This document shows positions 201 through 25,591 of a stretch of 29,131 bases of DNA, piece by piece. The notes beneath the pieces were generated by a model that made no database searches, was not told where the DNA came from, and saw only the letters and a program-made list of their open reading frames with translations. The position numbers were made by a program, and so were the translations under genes. Position 1 is the first letter of the stretch. Each line of letters starts with the position of its first letter. Source of the DNA: a virus. Where the stretch lies: positions 1 to 29,131 of the IMG/VR virus record IMGVR_UViG_3300020197_000111, one strand, 5' to 3'.

Positions 201-1193
201 TTAGGGCATCGTGATCCTTGTATTCTCGGTGCGAATTGTCTTATCACTTACATACTGCGATGATCTGTCATAGGTCATCGCTTTTCTTGTATCATTAATA
301 ACCTGTTGAAGATATTCCGGCTTAAGAAGATAAATGCTTCTTTTTAGGGTATTTTTTCGAGTTTCATATTCATAATTACTCACACTCACAACAGGATTTA
401 TATTTGCCGTAACAATATAAATCTGACCGACCATAGATGTGTGTGATGTGCATTGATAATATAAAACACTCGGTGCATTATATTGAACATCCCAAATCAG
501 TGTTCCGTTAGAGACTCCATTATTTACAATTCCATCACTATAAACAGTTCCATTTGTTCCGATACCGGTTTGTATTCTGAATGGATGAGCATTCATATTA
601 TTTGTGAATGTGTATCTCTCCCCTTTGATTAAATATAATGGTGGATTAGATTCATTACCGGTAAATCCAGGTCCTGTAAAAGTATAAGCATTAGACCCTT
701 GAGAACCTAAAATCCACCCTGATGTATAAAATGCAGAACCGATTCCAATATTCCCATAGATATCTACATCTGGAATTCTAAAATTAGAATCTACAACCTT
801 ACCTGCAGGAAGAATTAAACGACCTTTTGAATCCTTAACTTCGATTGTTTCATAATGATGAATAGCATTTAAATCATTACCATATATTTCTTCGGCATAT
901 TGATAAATGTCATAATCTGAAAGAGGCCATTCATTTCTGATATTTACAATACCGGCACTCACCAATACAACCCAATCATATTGAGCACTTCCATAAACTT
1001 CTTCGGCAACAGTATCCGGTCTTGCTCCGTCCTGAATTTGATACTTATTAAATATCATAAAAACATTTTTTAAATCATCACGAAGTTTAACTCTACGAAA
1101 TACATTCTTTACCAGTAAGTATTCATCAGAGCCTAAACTACTTGATAGGAACGATTGATATTCTAAATTTGGAAGCTCTCTGAAGTAAGACAT
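201..1193 (-). CDS. gp53: Baseplate wedge protein gp53 with an inserted cupredoxin-like domain
   Basis: This is a T4 gp53-type baseplate wedge subunit, needed to join wedges around the hub. The gp53 part is seen at residues 1-150 (FRELPNLEYQSFL at the start; a tyrosine/tryptophan-rich stretch near 66-90, with YGSAQYDWVVL) and again at 268-325 (NYEYETRKNTLKRSIYLLKPEYL). Between them, about residues 155-263, is a cupredoxin-like beta domain with all four type-1 copper ligand positions: His203, then Cys248-x2-His251-x2-Met254 followed by VGQIYIV. The total of 330 residues is much longer than T4 gp53 (about 196), and removing the insert restores a near-normal size. The start overlaps the stop of gp48 by one base (TAATG), so translation is probably coupled. 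The family assignment is solid; copper binding is inferred from the ligand pattern. Confidence 0.85.
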   Translation of the reverse strand: MSYFRELPNLEYQSFLSSSLGSDEYLLVKNVFRRVKLRDDLKNVFMIFNKYQIQDGARPDTVAEEVYGSAQYDWVVLVSAGIVNIRNEWPLSDYDIYQYAEEIYGNDLNAIHHYETIEVKDSKGRLILPAGKVVDSNFRIPDVDIYGNIGIGSAFYTSGWILGSQGSNAYTFTGPGFTGNESNPPLYLIKGERYTFTNNMNAHPFRIQTGIGTNGTVYSDGIVNNGVSNGTLIWDVQYNAPSVLYYQCTSHTSMVGQIYIVTANINPVVSVSNYEYETRKNTLKRSIYLLKPEYLQQVINDTRKAMTYDRSSQYVSDKTIRTENTRITMP

Positions 1194-6315: not shown

Positions 6316-8277
6316 ATGGCAATCTCATCACCACTTACTCCAAAAACTTCGGAAAGAACTATAAAAAACCTTCAGGGTATCATACTCAATAAAACACGAG
6401 TTAGTAGAGAAACTTTTCGAAATAAAACAATCTTACAGGATCGTAGAATTGAAAATGACAGGAGAGCTCTTCAAGAAGACGCACTTGAGGCACCTGATAT
6501 TGTGAGAAGACCACGTGGTGCCGCACAATTAATTGCCGGTAGTACCAAGGGATTTTTTGAGAGATTACTCGGATTTCTTGGTTACTTAACTGCCGGATGG
6601 CTTCTTAGTAATTTACCCACCTGGATTGCAATGGGTAAGGAGTTTATTGCCAGAACTGAAAAAATGGGCAATTTAATTGGAGGTTTTCTTTTAAATACCA
6701 CAAAAATATTCAATAATATTACGAGTCTTTTGGGTGCGACTTTAACTAATATAGTGACATTCGATTTTCTTGATACTTCGGAAAGAGTTGGCACTGCTTT
6801 CGAGGAACTTCAATTAAGTGTGGATAATTGGGGAACTGGATTTGAAGAAGCTCTTAACTTAATAACATCTCCATTAACCGAAGGTGTTGCTTCTGGTGAG
6901 AATGCTCCTCCACCAGGAACTCAATATACCGATGAGGGTGCCTATGAAACACCACCATCTTCTGGTGGCACTCCGGCACCGCAAGTAATGTTAGAGGGTG
7001 GAATATCAGGCACCACCGCTTTATTGCCAGCTAGTGCAAAGGGTGCTGATCAATATATTGGAGCCACGGATCGTTTTGGATATTCCAGTTGGAGAGGAAG
7101 GCATCATAATGGTATTGATATTGGAACAACCAAACAAAAAGGATATTACGTCGCATTTTTACTTGATGGAACGGCAACTCTTGGCAACCAACCAAAAGGT
7201 GCTGGGTTATTTGTTGAAATAAAAAGTGGTGGAACGACATATAAATTTTTTCACCTTGCTAGATTTTCTATTGCATCTGGTCCGTATAAAGCTGGAACTG
7301 CAATTGGTGAAATTGGAACTACTGGATCTAGTACTGGTATACATTTACATTATGAAGTTCATCCACCAGGATCTAAGGGAGTAGATCCAACACCATATTT
7401 AAATCTTATTAAAATTGGAAAAAAACTAGGCAAACCAACTCCTGCTCCGGCTTCGATTGCTTCTTCATCAACTAGTCAACCTCAACAAAACTTAATGGGA
7501 ACTTCTTCTTCGGGAATAAAATTGGGAGGAGGATCAAATGCGGAAAAAGTATATAAGCATTTAATTGGATCTGGATTTACTTCTCAGGCATCTGCCGGTG
7601 TAATTGGAAACTTAATGCAGGAAAGTGGTGGGGGGACATTTAATATCAATCCACAAAGTCATCAAAAGGATGGACCAGGAAGAGGTATTTTACAATGGGG
7701 AACTGGAAAAGGTAGTGGAGAAAGATGGGACACATTGTCTGCCTGGGCCAAAAAATCAGGTAAAGATCCATGGACTCTTGAAACACAAGTTGAATGGATG
7801 ATGAAAGAAATGAAAGATAGAGGAACTCTTAATCGTCTTAAAGGAATTAAAGATACACGTAAAGCAACTCTTTTATTTGAAAACGAAATGGCAGCTGCTG
7901 GAAAACCTATGATGGAAAATCGTTATCGTTATGCTGATAAAGCTCTTGCAACATTTGGTGGAAAATCTGCGACGGATATTTCCACCCCATCATCCCCATC
8001 CATAGCATCAGCACAAACATCAACCCCAACACCGGCACAAATCACACCAACCGGAACTCCTCAAAATCCACAAATGAGTCAGTCATCACAGGCTCTAACA
8101 CCAGAGAGAACCGGACCAACGGTGATCGTTGCTCAAAATCCTTCGTCTATGGGACAACGAATGATGTCTTATGGTGGTGGAGGTTCTTCTGGTGGAGGAT
8201 CACCACAAATAAGTGAATTTGCTATGTTAAATAATTTTATAAAAAATAAACTTCTACTCGATCTTGCTTACCTGTAA
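6316..8277 (+). CDS. Tail-associated murein hydrolase with M23 peptidase and tail-lysozyme domains
   Basis: In this 653-residue protein, residues 1-60 are basic and helical. Residues 78-160 are hydrophobic, with LGYLTAGWLLSNLP recalling the TGWL segment of the upstream gene. Residues 240-370 are an M23 (LytM-type) metallopeptidase: His264-x3-Asp268 (HHNGIDIG) and His343-Leu-His345-Tyr-Glu-Val supply the zinc ligands and catalytic His, with a GEIGTTGSSTGIHLHYE core. Residues 405-550 match the phage tail lysozyme family: SAGVIGNLMQESGGG with Glu436 as likely catalytic acid, then GRGILQWG and a long helix. The C-terminus is Pro/Thr/Gln-rich, then Gly/Ser-rich, ending in FAMLNNFIKNKLLLDLAYL. It should cut both peptide and glycan bonds of murein during injection, a job done in T4 by the gp5 lysozyme domain. 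It may also be part of the tape measure. One-base overlap with the next gene (TAATG). Confidence 0.85.
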   Translation: MAISSPLTPKTSERTIKNLQGIILNKTRVSRETFRNKTILQDRRIENDRRALQEDALEAPDIVRRPRGAAQLIAGSTKGFFERLLGFLGYLTAGWLLSNLPTWIAMGKEFIARTEKMGNLIGGFLLNTTKIFNNITSLLGATLTNIVTFDFLDTSERVGTAFEELQLSVDNWGTGFEEALNLITSPLTEGVASGENAPPPGTQYTDEGAYETPPSSGGTPAPQVMLEGGISGTTALLPASAKGADQYIGATDRFGYSSWRGRHHNGIDIGTTKQKGYYVAFLLDGTATLGNQPKGAGLFVEIKSGGTTYKFFHLARFSIASGPYKAGTAIGEIGTTGSSTGIHLHYEVHPPGSKGVDPTPYLNLIKIGKKLGKPTPAPASIASSSTSQPQQNLMGTSSSGIKLGGGSNAEKVYKHLIGSGFTSQASAGVIGNLMQESGGGTFNINPQSHQKDGPGRGILQWGTGKGSGERWDTLSAWAKKSGKDPWTLETQVEWMMKEMKDRGTLNRLKGIKDTRKATLLFENEMAAAGKPMMENRYRYADKALATFGGKSATDISTPSSPSIASAQTSTPTPAQITPTGTPQNPQMSQSSQALTPERTGPTVIVAQNPSSMGQRMMSYGGGGSSGGGSPQISEFAMLNNFIKNKLLLDLAYL

Positions 8278-9611
8278 TGTCAATTAACAAGTCTCTATAC
8301 GAAGAACTGGTTCTGGAATCAAACGATCAAAAAAGGACGATTGACATTAAAAATGGTGTCATCGCATTCGAATATTTCGAGGACATTTTTTCTCCAACAA
8401 TTACCGGTAGAATTAAAGTAGTCAATACAGGAAATACAATCGAATCTTTTAAGGACCCAGACGGAGAAAAGCAATCGATTTATAATGGACTTCCTCTTCG
8501 TGGTGGTGAAAGACTTTCAATTAAACTTGCCGGAAATGTTCCGGGAAGAGAATCACTAAATTTCTCAAAAGACCCCAAAGATTATTTTTATGTTTCGAGT
8601 ATTACTGATGTAATTTCAGAGGCACAAAATGAAAGTTTCACTTTGAATCTAGTTTCACGAGAGGCAATTACAAACGAAACTTCAAGAGTAGCAAAAAAAT
8701 ATTCAACATCATTAAAGATTAATGAGACGGTTCGCAAAATTTTAACCGATGTTCTAAAAACTGATAGAATCGGAACAATTGATGAGACTTCAAACAAGTA
8801 TGGTTTTGTTGGTAATTTAAGAAAACCATTCACCATATTAATTTGGTTAGCATCTAAAAGTGTTCCGGTGGTTTCCGGAGATGCGACTGCAGGATTTGTA
8901 TTTTATCAAACTCGTGATGGATTTCAGTTTCGTGCGATTGATAATCTAATTGCTCAAAAACCAAAGGCAACATATGTTTATAATCCAACAACCGTATCTT
9001 ATGATGATAATAATAAAAAGGTTGATAATGAGTTTAAAATTTTAAATTATAGCACCGAAAAAAATCAAAATTTAATTGAGAAACTTCGTCTTGGAACCTA
9101 TTCGAGTTCTAGAATTTTTTATGACCCTCTTAAATTTACATTCACCGAATCAATATTTCAACTTAAAGATTATGACAATAAATCTGAAAATCTTGGTGGA
9201 ACCGATTTAAAACTTCCTAAAATATCAGAGGGTTCTGATCAATCTCTTGGAGATGTTCCTTCTAGAATTATCACTGCTGTTCTGGATATTGGAACAATCG
9301 AAGCAGAAGTATCAAAGGATGAAAATGCTGACCCCTCTTTATATCAATCACAATCTTTAATGAGATATAATATTCTTTTTAGTCAGATTTTAAATGTAAT
9401 GGTTCCTGGAAATATAGATTTAAGAGCGGGTGATGTGATTGAGTGTTTATTTCCCACTAATTCACTAACAGACAAAAAAGAACACGACCCAGAAACAAGT
9501 GGTCTATATATGATTAAGGAACTTTGCCATCATTTTAATACGGAAAATTCCTATACATCATTAAAATTAATAAGAGATACATTCGGAGTCAACAATAAAG
9601 AAAAGAAATGA
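8277..9611 (+). CDS. gp27-like baseplate hub protein
   Basis: This is a 444-residue virion protein. The N-terminus (residues 10-70) reads DQKRTIDIKNGVIAFEYFED, then SPTITGRIKVVNTG, with LPLRGGERLSIKLAG, a barrel-type start seen in hub proteins such as T4 gp27 and the gpD/gp44 families. The middle has NLVSREAITNETSRVAKKYS and a helical KINETVRKILTDVLKT, and the end has VPGNIDLRAGDVIECLFPTN and then GLYMIKELCHHFNTENSYTS, typical of the last hub domain that orients the spike. It sits immediately upstream of the OB-fold gp5-like gene with an ATGA overlap, the usual gp27-gp5 partnership, and is close to T4 gp27 in size (391). I recognise it as a standard cyanophage structural protein; the equation with gp27 rests on pattern and synteny. 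Confidence 0.68.
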   Translation: MSINKSLYEELVLESNDQKRTIDIKNGVIAFEYFEDIFSPTITGRIKVVNTGNTIESFKDPDGEKQSIYNGLPLRGGERLSIKLAGNVPGRESLNFSKDPKDYFYVSSITDVISEAQNESFTLNLVSREAITNETSRVAKKYSTSLKINETVRKILTDVLKTDRIGTIDETSNKYGFVGNLRKPFTILIWLASKSVPVVSGDATAGFVFYQTRDGFQFRAIDNLIAQKPKATYVYNPTTVSYDDNNKKVDNEFKILNYSTEKNQNLIEKLRLGTYSSSRIFYDPLKFTFTESIFQLKDYDNKSENLGGTDLKLPKISEGSDQSLGDVPSRIITAVLDIGTIEAEVSKDENADPSLYQSQSLMRYNILFSQILNVMVPGNIDLRAGDVIECLFPTNSLTDKKEHDPETSGLYMIKELCHHFNTENSYTSLKLIRDTFGVNNKEKK

Positions 9612-12052
9612 TAGACGAATCACTACTTAAAAGTAATTTTGTAGGAAGAGACGGATTCCGTTGGTGGATTGGTCAGGTTGCCCCCGAGGATGCACAGGGT
9701 GGGCAGATAAATGGTGAGGGATGGGGAAATAGAAGAAAAGTTAGGATTATGGGGTATCATCCTCACGATATCACCGAACTTCCCGATAAAGACCTTCCGT
9801 GGGCACAGTGTATGTTGCCCACAACAACAGGAACTGGTGCCGGAAATAATGGAACTAATGTCAAAATATTGGGAGGAGATACCGTATTCGGTTTCTTTAT
9901 GGACGGTGATAATGCTCAACTTCCGGTTATTATTGGTGCATTCGGTAAGACCGCAGAAGGTGCCGTAAGCAATCAATTTAGTTTTCCATTTAAACCGTTT
10001 ACGGGATATACAAGTAAGATTAAGAATGATGGATCTAATTTAAAACGCGATCAAACGAACGAGGGAACCAAGGAGACTCAAAAATCACCATATCATCTTC
10101 CAACTAAAACCACAAATGAAAAATCGAGTGGTGAAGAGATTTCATATTTCAGTGGTATTGGGGATAAGGTACAGTTTGCATCTACAAAAGCTAATACATT
10201 TGTTGATAAAATCTCGACAGAACTTGAAAATGCAGTCAAGTTTGTTGAGACATTAAAATCTTATAAAGATTTATCAAAAGAATATATTGATGAACAAATT
10301 GAAAAATTATGTAAAGAAATTTCTAAAAAAATACAAGGTATTTCTACCGGTATTGTTGGTGGAGTCTTGAATGATACTTATAAGAAAATGATTCCATCAT
10401 TAAATGAAGGTGTCGAAAAGGTATATGATGATGTAAGTAGTAAAATTGAGGCAGCAACTAAAAGTATTTCACAGGGACATCTTGCCGGTGCCAAAGCTCA
10501 GGCAGAAACAATTCCACAATTAAAAAAACTTCAAGACGAAATCCCTAAATTAGGAAAATGTATTGTAAAGGATTTATTCAATATTATTGATGAAATGCTT
10601 TGTGCATTATTAAAAAATATTGCCAATCTAGTCTCCTGTGTGATAGATCAATTTCTTGGTGGACTATTAAATGCAATTATAGGTGCGATTGAGTTGGGAC
10701 TCAATCTTGCGATGGGAGCACTTGGCATTGCTAAATTATTACAGGGATTTGATTTAGGATCAATTATCAGAGGGAGTTCCAAAGGTATTTCCGGAGTCTC
10801 ATTTATTGCAGAGTGTGGTAAATGCCCATCTCCCTCAGATCCTGGTGTTGAAAGGTGGATGATTGGAAGTGGTGTGATTAGTTCGCCTGATACTAAGTTA
10901 AGCAAAATTTTAGAAGTTGCCAATACTGCCAAAGGAATTGTTGATGGAGTTACAGATGCCATAGATGCGGTAGAAGGCGCTATTACTGGCGTTACAGGAG
11001 CACTTGATATTTTTAACAGTTCTATTGGTGATTCTGGAACTCAAAGTGCTCTCGGAGCTTGTTATGCAGGGCCGCCAAGGTCTTGCAATCCACCTGAACT
11101 TAAAGTATTTGGCGGTGGCGGGTTTGGAGCGGAGGTAATTCCTATTTTTGGTTCAATTGTTAATGGAAATGTTGGAAGTTTAATTGGTGCTGTAATTACA
11201 AATGCGGGGTCTGGTTATATTTCTGCTCCATTTGTGGAGGTGACCGATAATTGTAATCAAGGATATGGAGGAATTGTTCAAACAACAATTAATGCGGAAG
11301 GTCAAGTTGCTAGTGTCGTGGTGATTTCCGATGGTGAAAATTACCCAGTTGGAACTCAAGACCCAGATGTATTCACAATTGTAAGTGTTCTGATTGAAAA
11401 TCCAGGAGTAGAATATGAACCAGATGATATTGTAATTGATAATCTTGGAAATGAATATAGTGTGATTATTAATAATGGTTCTATCGTTAAGGTTGACCCC
11501 GTAAATGTTAAGAATATTGAGAAGTTGCCTGTTCTTGAAGTTGTTGGTAAGAAAAATTCCATAGGAATATATGAAGTTACTCAAGGAAGAGGAGCAATAT
11601 TAAGACCAATCTTTGGTATCAAACCAGAGTTCCAGGGAGAAGTTCAACAAATTATTGATTGTGTTTATCCTAGACGTTCAGAAACACCTCTAACAACACC
11701 AACTTCTACATCAACTCCTATACCAATCACTGCATTAATTTCAACATCAACAACCACCACACCAACTTTAACAACCACCACACCAACTTTAACATCATCG
11801 GGTGGAGGTGGATCTTCTTCCCCAGCATCTTTCCCAGTACCAACACCTGTACCATCAACACCAACACCAATATCATCACCATCACCAACTCCTACACCAA
11901 CTCCTACACCAACTCCTACACCAACTCCTACACCAACTCCTACACCAACTCCTACACCAACTCCACCACCATCTCCATCACCATCTCCACCGCCATCTCC
12001 ACCGCCATCTCCACCGCCATCTCCACCATCGGGAGGAGGATATGGTTACTAA
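9608..12052 (+). CDS. gp5: gp5-like hub protein: OB-fold N-terminus, helical middle, proline-repeat tail, no lysozyme
   Basis: Residues 10-120 match the N-terminal OB fold of T4 gp5: FRWWIGQVAPEDAQGG, RRKVRIMGYHPHD, LPDKDLPWAQCMLPTTTGTG, then VFGFFMDGDNAQLPVIIGAF. In T4 this domain is followed by a lysozyme and a triple beta-helix; here neither is present. Instead residues 175-300 are helical and Lys/Glu-rich, and 310-400 are strongly hydrophobic (IANLVSCVIDQFLGGLLNAI). A Cys-containing region and a Gly-rich beta region follow, with ITNAGSGYISAPFVEV and repeated GENYPVG/GVEYEPD turns (520-690). The last 120 residues are Thr/Pro and Ser/Pro tandem repeats ending SGGGYGY. The total of 814 is far longer than T4 gp5 (575). 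The OB identity is strong; the rest is novel architecture. It follows the gp27-like gene with an ATGA overlap. Confidence 0.8.
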   Translation: MIDESLLKSNFVGRDGFRWWIGQVAPEDAQGGQINGEGWGNRRKVRIMGYHPHDITELPDKDLPWAQCMLPTTTGTGAGNNGTNVKILGGDTVFGFFMDGDNAQLPVIIGAFGKTAEGAVSNQFSFPFKPFTGYTSKIKNDGSNLKRDQTNEGTKETQKSPYHLPTKTTNEKSSGEEISYFSGIGDKVQFASTKANTFVDKISTELENAVKFVETLKSYKDLSKEYIDEQIEKLCKEISKKIQGISTGIVGGVLNDTYKKMIPSLNEGVEKVYDDVSSKIEAATKSISQGHLAGAKAQAETIPQLKKLQDEIPKLGKCIVKDLFNIIDEMLCALLKNIANLVSCVIDQFLGGLLNAIIGAIELGLNLAMGALGIAKLLQGFDLGSIIRGSSKGISGVSFIAECGKCPSPSDPGVERWMIGSGVISSPDTKLSKILEVANTAKGIVDGVTDAIDAVEGAITGVTGALDIFNSSIGDSGTQSALGACYAGPPRSCNPPELKVFGGGGFGAEVIPIFGSIVNGNVGSLIGAVITNAGSGYISAPFVEVTDNCNQGYGGIVQTTINAEGQVASVVVISDGENYPVGTQDPDVFTIVSVLIENPGVEYEPDDIVIDNLGNEYSVIINNGSIVKVDPVNVKNIEKLPVLEVVGKKNSIGIYEVTQGRGAILRPIFGIKPEFQGEVQQIIDCVYPRRSETPLTTPTSTSTPIPITALISTSTTTTPTLTTTTPTLTSSGGGGSSSPASFPVPTPVPSTPTPISSPSPTPTPTPTPTPTPTPTPTPTPTPTPTPPPSPSPSPPPSPPPSPPPSPPSGGGYGY
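11885..12030 (+). repeat. Tandem Pro-rich codon repeats, (CCAACTCCTACA)n then (CCATCTCCACCG)n
   Basis: Six consecutive near-perfect 12-bp units CCAACTCCTACA (11885-11956) encode Pro-Thr repeats. They pass into units of CCATCTCCACCG type encoding Pro-Ser-Pro-Pro. Base-level identity shows recent expansion, so copy number probably varies between relatives. The encoded stretch is an extended polyproline-type arm at the end of the gp5-like protein. Confidence 0.9.
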
Positions 12053-23167: not shown

Positions 23168-25591
23168 ATGGCATTAAGAAATCCAAAAATATTTGGCCTT
23201 GACGTAACAAAGAATTTAGCAGATGTTAAAGATAAAGAGACTGCTTTACAGTTCTTAAATATACCAAGAAGCGCTTTAAATGTAATTCAAGGATCTGCAA
23301 ATGCCGGGGCTTCAAGAGAGGACTGGATGAGTCTCTCTAGACTTACGGATCCAATTTATAAAACATTAGATCGATCATTTCAAGAATCATTAAATTATGG
23401 TGGATTATTAGATAGTCGTGCCGGAACAGAAAAAACTTTGTTTGGAAATTTAAATATTAATGGATCGATAAGTGGTAATGCGATTAGATTTCGTTATCTT
23501 GATGGAACTGGATCAGGCGCCACTGTAAAAATTGCTGATATTTCAACATCAAGAGTGAGTGCTTGGAGTTCTGTAGGCACAGGAGCTGCAGTTCCAATTT
23601 CTTATGGAGCTAGAGTAAGTATTAGAAGCACCGGTGCCTTACAATTTGGAACACAATCTGGAGTATCGGGTCCCAGACTACAAACATCTATCACTCCACA
23701 ATTGAAAGAATTTGATTCTGAATTTCCAACACATAAAATTAGTTGCACCATAGGAGGATCATCGGTTGTTCTCTATGCAATGAAAGGAATACCGGTTGTT
23801 TTTACCGGATTTTTTAGAGATTTGGATGCCACCATCAATTTAACAACTCTTGTTAATAACACTCCGGCAAGTTGGAAGATCGTAGAGACGGGAAATGCAA
23901 ACAATTTTTCAAAATTTAAAAATCAGGGAAATACAACATCCTCGATTAACTATAGATCTTCAATTTCACGAGAAAGATATATTCAATTTTATTATAATCC
24001 AGATAATATTCAAAGAATTACTTTGACTTCGGCAAATATTTCCGAACTTCCTGTTGTTAAATTTAATGCCGCAACACATATTAATTTTTCTTCCAATCAA
24101 CTTCGTGAATTTCCCAATTTAAATACTATTACTCCGAGTCTTAAAAGTTTAAATTTAATAGCAAATCCTCTTCATCAGAGTAGTATTCCAACGGAAAGAA
24201 AATTAAATTCTGCCGTTATTGATAAAATACCTCAAGGTTTAGAGGAGTTATATCTGGCACAAACATTTTATGGGTCAATAACACAAAATATTATTGCGAA
24301 TCGATTTACCGGATTAAAGGTTTTATATTTAAGTCGAGGTGGCGGCCAATATTTTCATCCCGACAATGATGATCCAAACTGTAAATTACCAAATGTTCCA
24401 GATACTTGTCAGACCTATCAGGTTTCGAATAATGATTTTAGAGCATTTGACGCATCATCGGGAAATGCAAAGACTATAAATGACCTTACAAATTTAGTAA
24501 CTCTTGATCTTAATGGTAATTATTATTTGAGTGGCACAGTTAATATCAATAATGATAATAAAAAAATACAGTCAATAAACGCCGGGGGCACTAATTTAAC
24601 CTTACCAACAGGTCTTGCGGGTAAAAGTTCATTTACAACTTTATATCAAGACTATGCTAGAAGTGCCGGACCACTTGTAGTAAACGGAAATTACTTATAT
24701 AACGGATGTAACTCACTCAGTACTTTATCTCTTTATGCATCAAATGTAACAGGAGCACTACCGAAGTTCACAAATGCTGCTTTAAGTTATCTTGAACTTC
24801 GTAATACTAATTTAACTGGTGGAGATCCAAACGGAGACACTTCTTTTGTAATACCAGAAAAAACATTCGAAAATTGCACCAATTTACAATATATGTTTTT
24901 ACAATCTGGTAATTTACTTCCAAATAAACCAATTCATCCTAATGCTTTCTCATATACACCAAATCTATATTACTTCTGGTATATTTCATATGGAAGAACC
25001 ACTGATAAAATTCCCAATTTAGGAACAAATACAAATCTAACATATCTAGTTCTGCATAATAATAATTTTACGGGATCGATGCCATCTTTGGCATCTAATA
25101 AAAATATTCATTATGTGGATGTGTCTTATAATGCTTTAAGTGGTGCTATTCCGGCATTTAGTAATCTATCAAATTTATATTATTTGTATATGTATAATAA
25201 TCAATTTACATCATTAAATCAATTTAAAAATCTTTCAAATCTTGCTTATTTTTATGCTCATAATAATAAACTAGCAGGCGAAATACCAAGTTTTGAGGAA
25301 TGTCCTAATCTATATTATCTTATTCTTTTTAATAATCAATTAATAAGTTATAAAACCGGAGCACTTAAAAATAATTATAATTTAAAATATTTGGATTTAT
25401 CGGGAAATTTATTAACTGGGCAAGCAATCAATCAAATTCTTGCCGATTTACTCTTAAATTATAATGCCGCGAACCGTGGGGGTGTGACTGTCAATTTAAG
25501 ATCCCAGGGAGGCGGGGGTCCAAGTGGAAAACCCGCACTAGATACTATTGATATTTTAAGATCGAAAGGTTGGTCAATCGTGTATAACTAA
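23168..25591 (+). CDS. Leucine-rich-repeat tail fibre/adhesin protein
   Basis: In this 807-residue protein the first 60 residues (NLADVKDKETALQFLNIPRS) resemble the virion-anchoring start of cyanophage fibre proteins, followed by a beta region to about 270. From about 275 to 765 there are leucine-rich repeats with LxxLxLxxNxLxG spacing: SLKSLNLIANPL, GLEELYLAQTF, GLKVLYLSRGG, NLVTLDLNGNYYLSGTVNI, NLTYLVLHNNNFTGSMPSLA, NIHYVDVSYNALSGAIPAFS, NLYYLYMYNNQFTSLNQF, NLAYFYAHNNKLAGEIPSFE, NLKYLDLSGNLLTGQ. The N-x-L-x-G-x-I-P form is the plant-type/bacterial-surface LRR. The repeats should form a curved binding solenoid, so a receptor-recognition role is a reasonable inference. It ends RSKGWSIVYN. It lies in the fibre operon with a one-base gap on each side. 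Confidence 0.82.
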   Translation: MALRNPKIFGLDVTKNLADVKDKETALQFLNIPRSALNVIQGSANAGASREDWMSLSRLTDPIYKTLDRSFQESLNYGGLLDSRAGTEKTLFGNLNINGSISGNAIRFRYLDGTGSGATVKIADISTSRVSAWSSVGTGAAVPISYGARVSIRSTGALQFGTQSGVSGPRLQTSITPQLKEFDSEFPTHKISCTIGGSSVVLYAMKGIPVVFTGFFRDLDATINLTTLVNNTPASWKIVETGNANNFSKFKNQGNTTSSINYRSSISRERYIQFYYNPDNIQRITLTSANISELPVVKFNAATHINFSSNQLREFPNLNTITPSLKSLNLIANPLHQSSIPTERKLNSAVIDKIPQGLEELYLAQTFYGSITQNIIANRFTGLKVLYLSRGGGQYFHPDNDDPNCKLPNVPDTCQTYQVSNNDFRAFDASSGNAKTINDLTNLVTLDLNGNYYLSGTVNINNDNKKIQSINAGGTNLTLPTGLAGKSSFTTLYQDYARSAGPLVVNGNYLYNGCNSLSTLSLYASNVTGALPKFTNAALSYLELRNTNLTGGDPNGDTSFVIPEKTFENCTNLQYMFLQSGNLLPNKPIHPNAFSYTPNLYYFWYISYGRTTDKIPNLGTNTNLTYLVLHNNNFTGSMPSLASNKNIHYVDVSYNALSGAIPAFSNLSNLYYLYMYNNQFTSLNQFKNLSNLAYFYAHNNKLAGEIPSFEECPNLYYLILFNNQLISYKTGALKNNYNLKYLDLSGNLLTGQAINQILADLLLNYNAANRGGVTVNLRSQGGGGPSGKPALDTIDILRSKGWSIVYN

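Follow-up and report, generated by a model that had tools for sequence, protein, structure and literature searches.

A probable cupredoxin module of cyanophage tails inserted in a gp53-like baseplate wedge protein

The 29,131-nucleotide stretch analysed here (the window; IMG/VR record IMGVR_UViG_3300020197_000111) encodes a gp53-like baseplate wedge protein in which the initial annotation had noticed a cupredoxin-like domain with four intact copper ligands. This raises the question of what such a domain is doing in a structural wedge protein, and whether its ligands mark a real metal site. We think it likely that the insert is a mobile cupredoxin module from the adsorption machinery of cyanophages, one that gp53 has gained or lost recently, and that it binds copper in a mainly structural role. 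The gene and its parts are the following:

201..1193, minus strand: gp53-like baseplate wedge protein of 330 aa with an inserted domain (ORF, PF11246, phrog_232, T4 gp53-like model core)
399..776, minus strand: inserted segment, about aa 140-265 (alignment with L007 and L008; flanking DNA 92-99% identical)
405..722, minus strand: predicted cupredoxin-fold domain, about aa 158-263 (AlphaFold2 model; Foldseek and VIA-align matches)

The 330-aa ORF matches the Pfam family Phage_gp53 (PF11246) with 24.4 bits, above the gathering cutoff of 21, and phrog_232 with an E value of 7.6e-67, the best stretch being residues 1-143. Its modelled core resembles T4 gp53 (5iv5_BF; Z 10.6 over 161 residues) and also a Klebsiella phage gp53 (9f4a; Z 9.4), and the Pfam score together with this predicted fold places the protein among the gp53s. 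We also note three other genes of the window, all on the plus strand: a 653-aa protein joining an M23 peptidase to a phage tail lysozyme domain (6316-8277), a gp5-like baseplate hub (phrog_1922; 9608-12052) with a long terminal tail of low-complexity (PT)n/(PS)n sequence, and an 807-aa gene in the tail cluster (23168-25591) with leucine-rich repeats (PF12799, E 3e-16), which are unusual for a phage tail region and whose PHROG matches are weak.

The insertion has a precise empty counterpart. In the closest relatives, contigs L007 and L008, gp53 is only 215 aa long and aligns without the module; a short linker, TIPNPQII(T/I)QTL, stands in place of about 126 window residues, so that the net gain is 115 codons. 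Thus gp53 is indeed interrupted, as had been proposed. The inserted segment (about residues 140-265, window positions 399-776) is slightly wider than the limits first given, about residues 155-263; the folded domain spans about 158-263. The flanking DNA is 96.4% and 94.4% identical between the window and L007, and 99.0% and 97.5% identical when the insert-bearing L004 is compared with the insert-free L008; such near-identical flanks indicate that gain or loss of the module takes little time. The same insertion is found on four other contigs in two sequence types (L002 and L003 identical; L004 and L005 92% identical), and from one type to the other the insert alone is 92% identical. In these small samples dN/dS is about 0.42 for the insert versus 0.18-0.20 for the gp53 core. 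The gp53 loop at the insertion point varies in length across gp53s, and in another relative (L006, 3001-3891) it holds about 80 inserted residues unrelated to the module; the loop thus tolerates insertions. A full-length model built from gp53 relatives only left the insert unfolded, with pLDDT of about 30 there. T4 gp53 links adjacent baseplate wedges, so the insert probably projects from the wedge.

For the module itself, an AlphaFold2 model was made without templates from an alignment with 68 relatives from viral contigs. The model (pLDDT 93.3, pTM 0.86) is an eight-stranded beta-sandwich, and the PDB matches that Foldseek lists are either cupredoxins proper or share their fold (rusticyanin, amicyanin, plastocyanin, three-domain copper nitrite reductase, AcoP, CueO, coagulation factors V and VIII and others). 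VIA-align superposes 96 residues on the N-terminal domain of Hyphomicrobium denitrificans nitrite reductase at 2.4 A (Z 11.0) and gives Z 9.6 with rusticyanin; laccases are also among the best structural matches. When a profile of 14 phage copies is searched against the PDB, the best-ranking matches are copper nitrite reductase, amicyanin and plastocyanin (E 0.002-0.05), and hhalign of the phage module against amicyanin plus nitrite reductase gives a probability of 91%. Individual scores are modest, yet nearly all matches fall in one superfamily. As a single sequence the insert has no significant cupredoxin match in the PDB or Pfam, and a profile is required to see the likeness. The window domain also falls short of the amicyanin model TIGR02657 (14.5 bits; curated cutoff 110.2) and of the gathering score of the plastocyanin/azurin family PF00127, to which 5 of the 14 phage copies show weak matches (best E 0.019). 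An eight-stranded sandwich whose matches are solved cupredoxins is thus predicted, and AlphaFold2, Foldseek and VIA-align agree in pointing to that fold.

The four putative ligand residues, which are those the initial annotation had named, lie as follows:

585..587, minus strand: His203, predicted first copper ligand, just ahead of a strand, in an HPF motif
450..452, minus strand: Cys248, predicted thiolate ligand, at the end of the penultimate strand
441..443, minus strand: His251, predicted second His ligand, in the loop joining the last two strands
432..434, minus strand: Met254, predicted axial ligand, directly before the last strand

This is the type-1 ligand order, H...C-x(n)-H-x(n)-M, with two His, one Cys and an axial Met, and Met254 is followed by VGQIYIV. 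In domain numbering the model puts H54 before strand 56-59, C99 at the end of strand 94-99, H102 in a loop and M105 before strand 106-112, and these strand positions suggest a cupredoxin layout. The likeness of the C-x2-H-x2-M spacing to amicyanin stands: the same spacing occurs in a PDB amicyanin chain (CTAHPFM, the P94A mutant) and in copper nitrite reductase (CTPHPFM). In sequence alignments, the hhalign one included, the Cys, second His and Met are in register and the first His is one residue off the classical PHN His; its predicted secondary-structure position agrees with that in cupredoxins. In multicopper oxidases the first His of the HPxHxHG motif serves as a type-1 ligand, and HPF in the module is therefore not unusual.

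Conservation was assessed in 155 distinct copies, each 75 residues or longer. All four ligands are kept in 153 of these, so the set is far from chance and the homologues show no free variation in it. Neither result that the initial annotation had named as refuting, a fold other than a cupredoxin or freely varying ligands, was obtained. Of the two copies that differ, one reads FAVM (in S-B05, with the same copy in RB11-B) and the other DSTI (a second copy in L162). The FAVM copy has lost three ligands and keeps 10 of 10 other conserved residues, and the DSTI copy has lost four and keeps 8 of 10; the fold residues therefore persist without the site. That all seven lost ligands fall in two of 155 rows would have a chance of about 1e-11 if losses were independent, a figure that leaves relatedness unmodelled and serves only as a guide. 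One of the retrieval patterns for copy set A2 includes the ligand Cys, and Cys conservation is partly built into that set; in set A3, retrieved by patterns without any ligand column, HCHM is present in 54 of 54 distinct copies. Near-invariant and lost as a set, the ligand pattern is what a selected metal site looks like, and the real metal site initially proposed is well supported by inference from the predicted fold and this conservation. The FAVM copy sits in a 782-aa tail fibre common to S-B05 and RB11-B (L101, L286), and RB11-B has an additional intact copy in another gene. Exactly one Cys is present in 150 of the 155 copies, and Cys248 is the sole cysteine in all 330 aa of the window protein; a disulfide role was rejected on the count of one Cys per copy.

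The module is not peculiar to gp53. The ligand set is present in the wedge protein, as first described, but it is part of a module that is widespread in cyanophage tails: matches at E up to 1e-3 occur in 354 of the 50,697 phage records, and almost all of these records are named Synechococcus, Prochlorococcus or cyanophage. The C-terminal domain of PHROG 677 matches the window module with an E value of 6.3e-33 (profile positions 306-410 of 412), tail-fibre PHROGs also match it, and the BFVD matches are cyanophage tail fibres and connectors. Carriers include the wedge-fibre connector (as its C-terminal domain), tail fibres, other baseplate proteins and many others, and extend to proteins of the T7-like phages P-GSP1 and P-SCSP2. 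The tail-fibre carrier of S-SCSM1, a phage whose virion proteome has been studied by mass spectrometry (PMC9602691), is annotated "virion protein". Whole-genome searches often find two or more copies per genome, and no copy at E 0.01 or better in S-SRM01. The module is common; its presence in gp53 is rare. A FastTree phylogeny built from 156 copies places the gp53 inserts together with the tail-fibre and connector copies L104, L105, L112 and L120 (support 0.84), and on this sequence tree the gp53 copy most likely derives from another phage tail gene. We also note that five bacterial contigs (L184-L188; marine Alphaproteobacteria/Gammaproteobacteria genomes and Bacteroidetes) encode the module in surface-type proteins, and that collagen-like Gly-X-Y repeats precede it in L187 and L188.

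The reading we favor is that the insert is a cupredoxin domain whose two His, Cys and Met would form a type-1-like copper site. The module would be mobile among the outer parts of the adsorption apparatus (the C-terminus of the gp9/gp10-like connector, tail fibres and other baseplate proteins), and gp53 of this phage group would have gained it, or it may segregate there. In that case the domain would be a compact and sturdy module for decoration or contact that juts from the wedge, with the metal serving mainly to lock the beta-sandwich and its C-x2-H-x2-M loop in shape outside the cell. We infer both metal binding and copper as the metal; sequence cannot tell copper from zinc or from an empty site.

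That the insert is a chimeric assembly or a broken gene is highly improbable: it is found on only four other contigs of the viral collection, but these show the same junctions in two sequence types, the frame is open throughout and the dN/dS of the insert is that given above. Chimeric assembly was rejected on the shared insertion in L002-L005. A domain that binds no metal is a better candidate, though still an unlikely one. Phage tails commonly bear Ig-like decorations, and a similar domain derived from a cupredoxin could bind a receptor, a polysaccharide or a neighboring virion protein, with H, C, H and M being just packing residues; the two ligand-less copies that retain their fold residues fit this idea. 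However, packing alone would not give set-wise loss of ligands with the other conserved residues kept, and a lone Cys in 99% of copies is unusual for a packing residue.

Slightly less probable is that the site holds another metal in vivo, either Zn or Fe, or that virion metal serves as a bait or nutrient store, as proposed for tail-fibre iron. Zn can occupy 2His-Cys-Met sites in vitro. Iron-binding HxH sites have been described in the tail fibres of phages, namely T4 gp37 and Alteromonas phage R22Y (PMC11705849), but the cupredoxin fold and the C-x2-H-x2-M spacing are those of copper proteins and do not fit the trimeric HxH sites in T4 gp37. The module may have a role in redox chemistry or host sensing, but this is unsupported, and we consider it improbable that this is a working redox centre, in which type-1 copper would swap electrons at the host surface or quench oxidants, for example as an adsorption contact or redox sensor. 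The full and strongly constrained type-1 ligand set, the nearest folds (electron-transfer cupredoxins), the photosynthetic hosts and the occurrence of plastocyanin genes in cyanophages (PMC3037559) speak for such a centre. Against it, no redox partner, type-2/3 copper domain or electron path was found within the gp53 protein, and the module is present in many different structural proteins. Moreover, type-1 copper sites keep a nearly constant shape between oxidation states, and with so little change on oxidation such a site is a poor switch.

Neither gp53 nor the fold family is new, and databases already list the phage module under tail names. The open-access literature searched (cyanophage, tail fibre, virion copper) contained no account of it as a cupredoxin or copper site, which is not proof of absence. 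If the putative site is occupied, the infection apparatus of an abundant class of marine viruses contains an ordered copper site, a metal chemistry undescribed for phage tails in that literature, and copper joins the discussion on phage-tail iron and trace-metal cycling; many virus particles of these related phages may carry copper. A broader proposal, which we offer only tentatively and hold somewhat doubtful, is that cyanophage virions are copper proteins, with a mobile blue-copper module decorating baseplate and fibres in a large proportion of marine cyanophages, and that several copper centres per particle play a part in contact with the photosynthetic host or in exchanging copper with it. 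In any case, a family now annotated only "baseplate wedge tail fiber connector" gains a named, testable domain, and there is a natural pair of gp53 genes with and without it that are 99% identical at one flank.

Comparison with known systems is informative in placing the module. T4 gp53 (5iv5) resembles the core of the window protein, as the Z score and PF11246 match above indicate, but unlike the window gp53 it has no inserted domain. Amicyanin (TIGR02657) agrees with the window module in predicted fold, in the order of the ligands and, exactly, in the C-x2-H-x2-M spacing; it has HN after the first His where the module has HP, and, unlike amicyanin, the module is part of a virion protein without a known redox partner. 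The N-terminal cupredoxin domain of the H. denitrificans copper nitrite reductase (2dv6, 6tfd) and rusticyanin are the best structural matches, but they are only about 18% identical to the module and are enzymes or electron carriers of bacterial respiration. The HxH tail-fibre sites of T4 gp37 and R22Y likewise place a metal site (a putative one in the module) in a phage adsorption protein, but theirs are octahedral His sites in trimeric fibres, with iron the proposed metal, whereas the window module is a predicted cupredoxin. The closest counterpart is the PHROG 677 connector of cyanophages such as S-H34, syn9 and P-SSM7, which has a homologous module with the same four residues, and whose predicted structure in S-H34 superposes on the window module with a TMq of 0.91. 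There the module is the C-terminal domain of a gp9/gp10-like protein, whereas in the window it lies inside gp53, and the connector annotations do not name it a cupredoxin.
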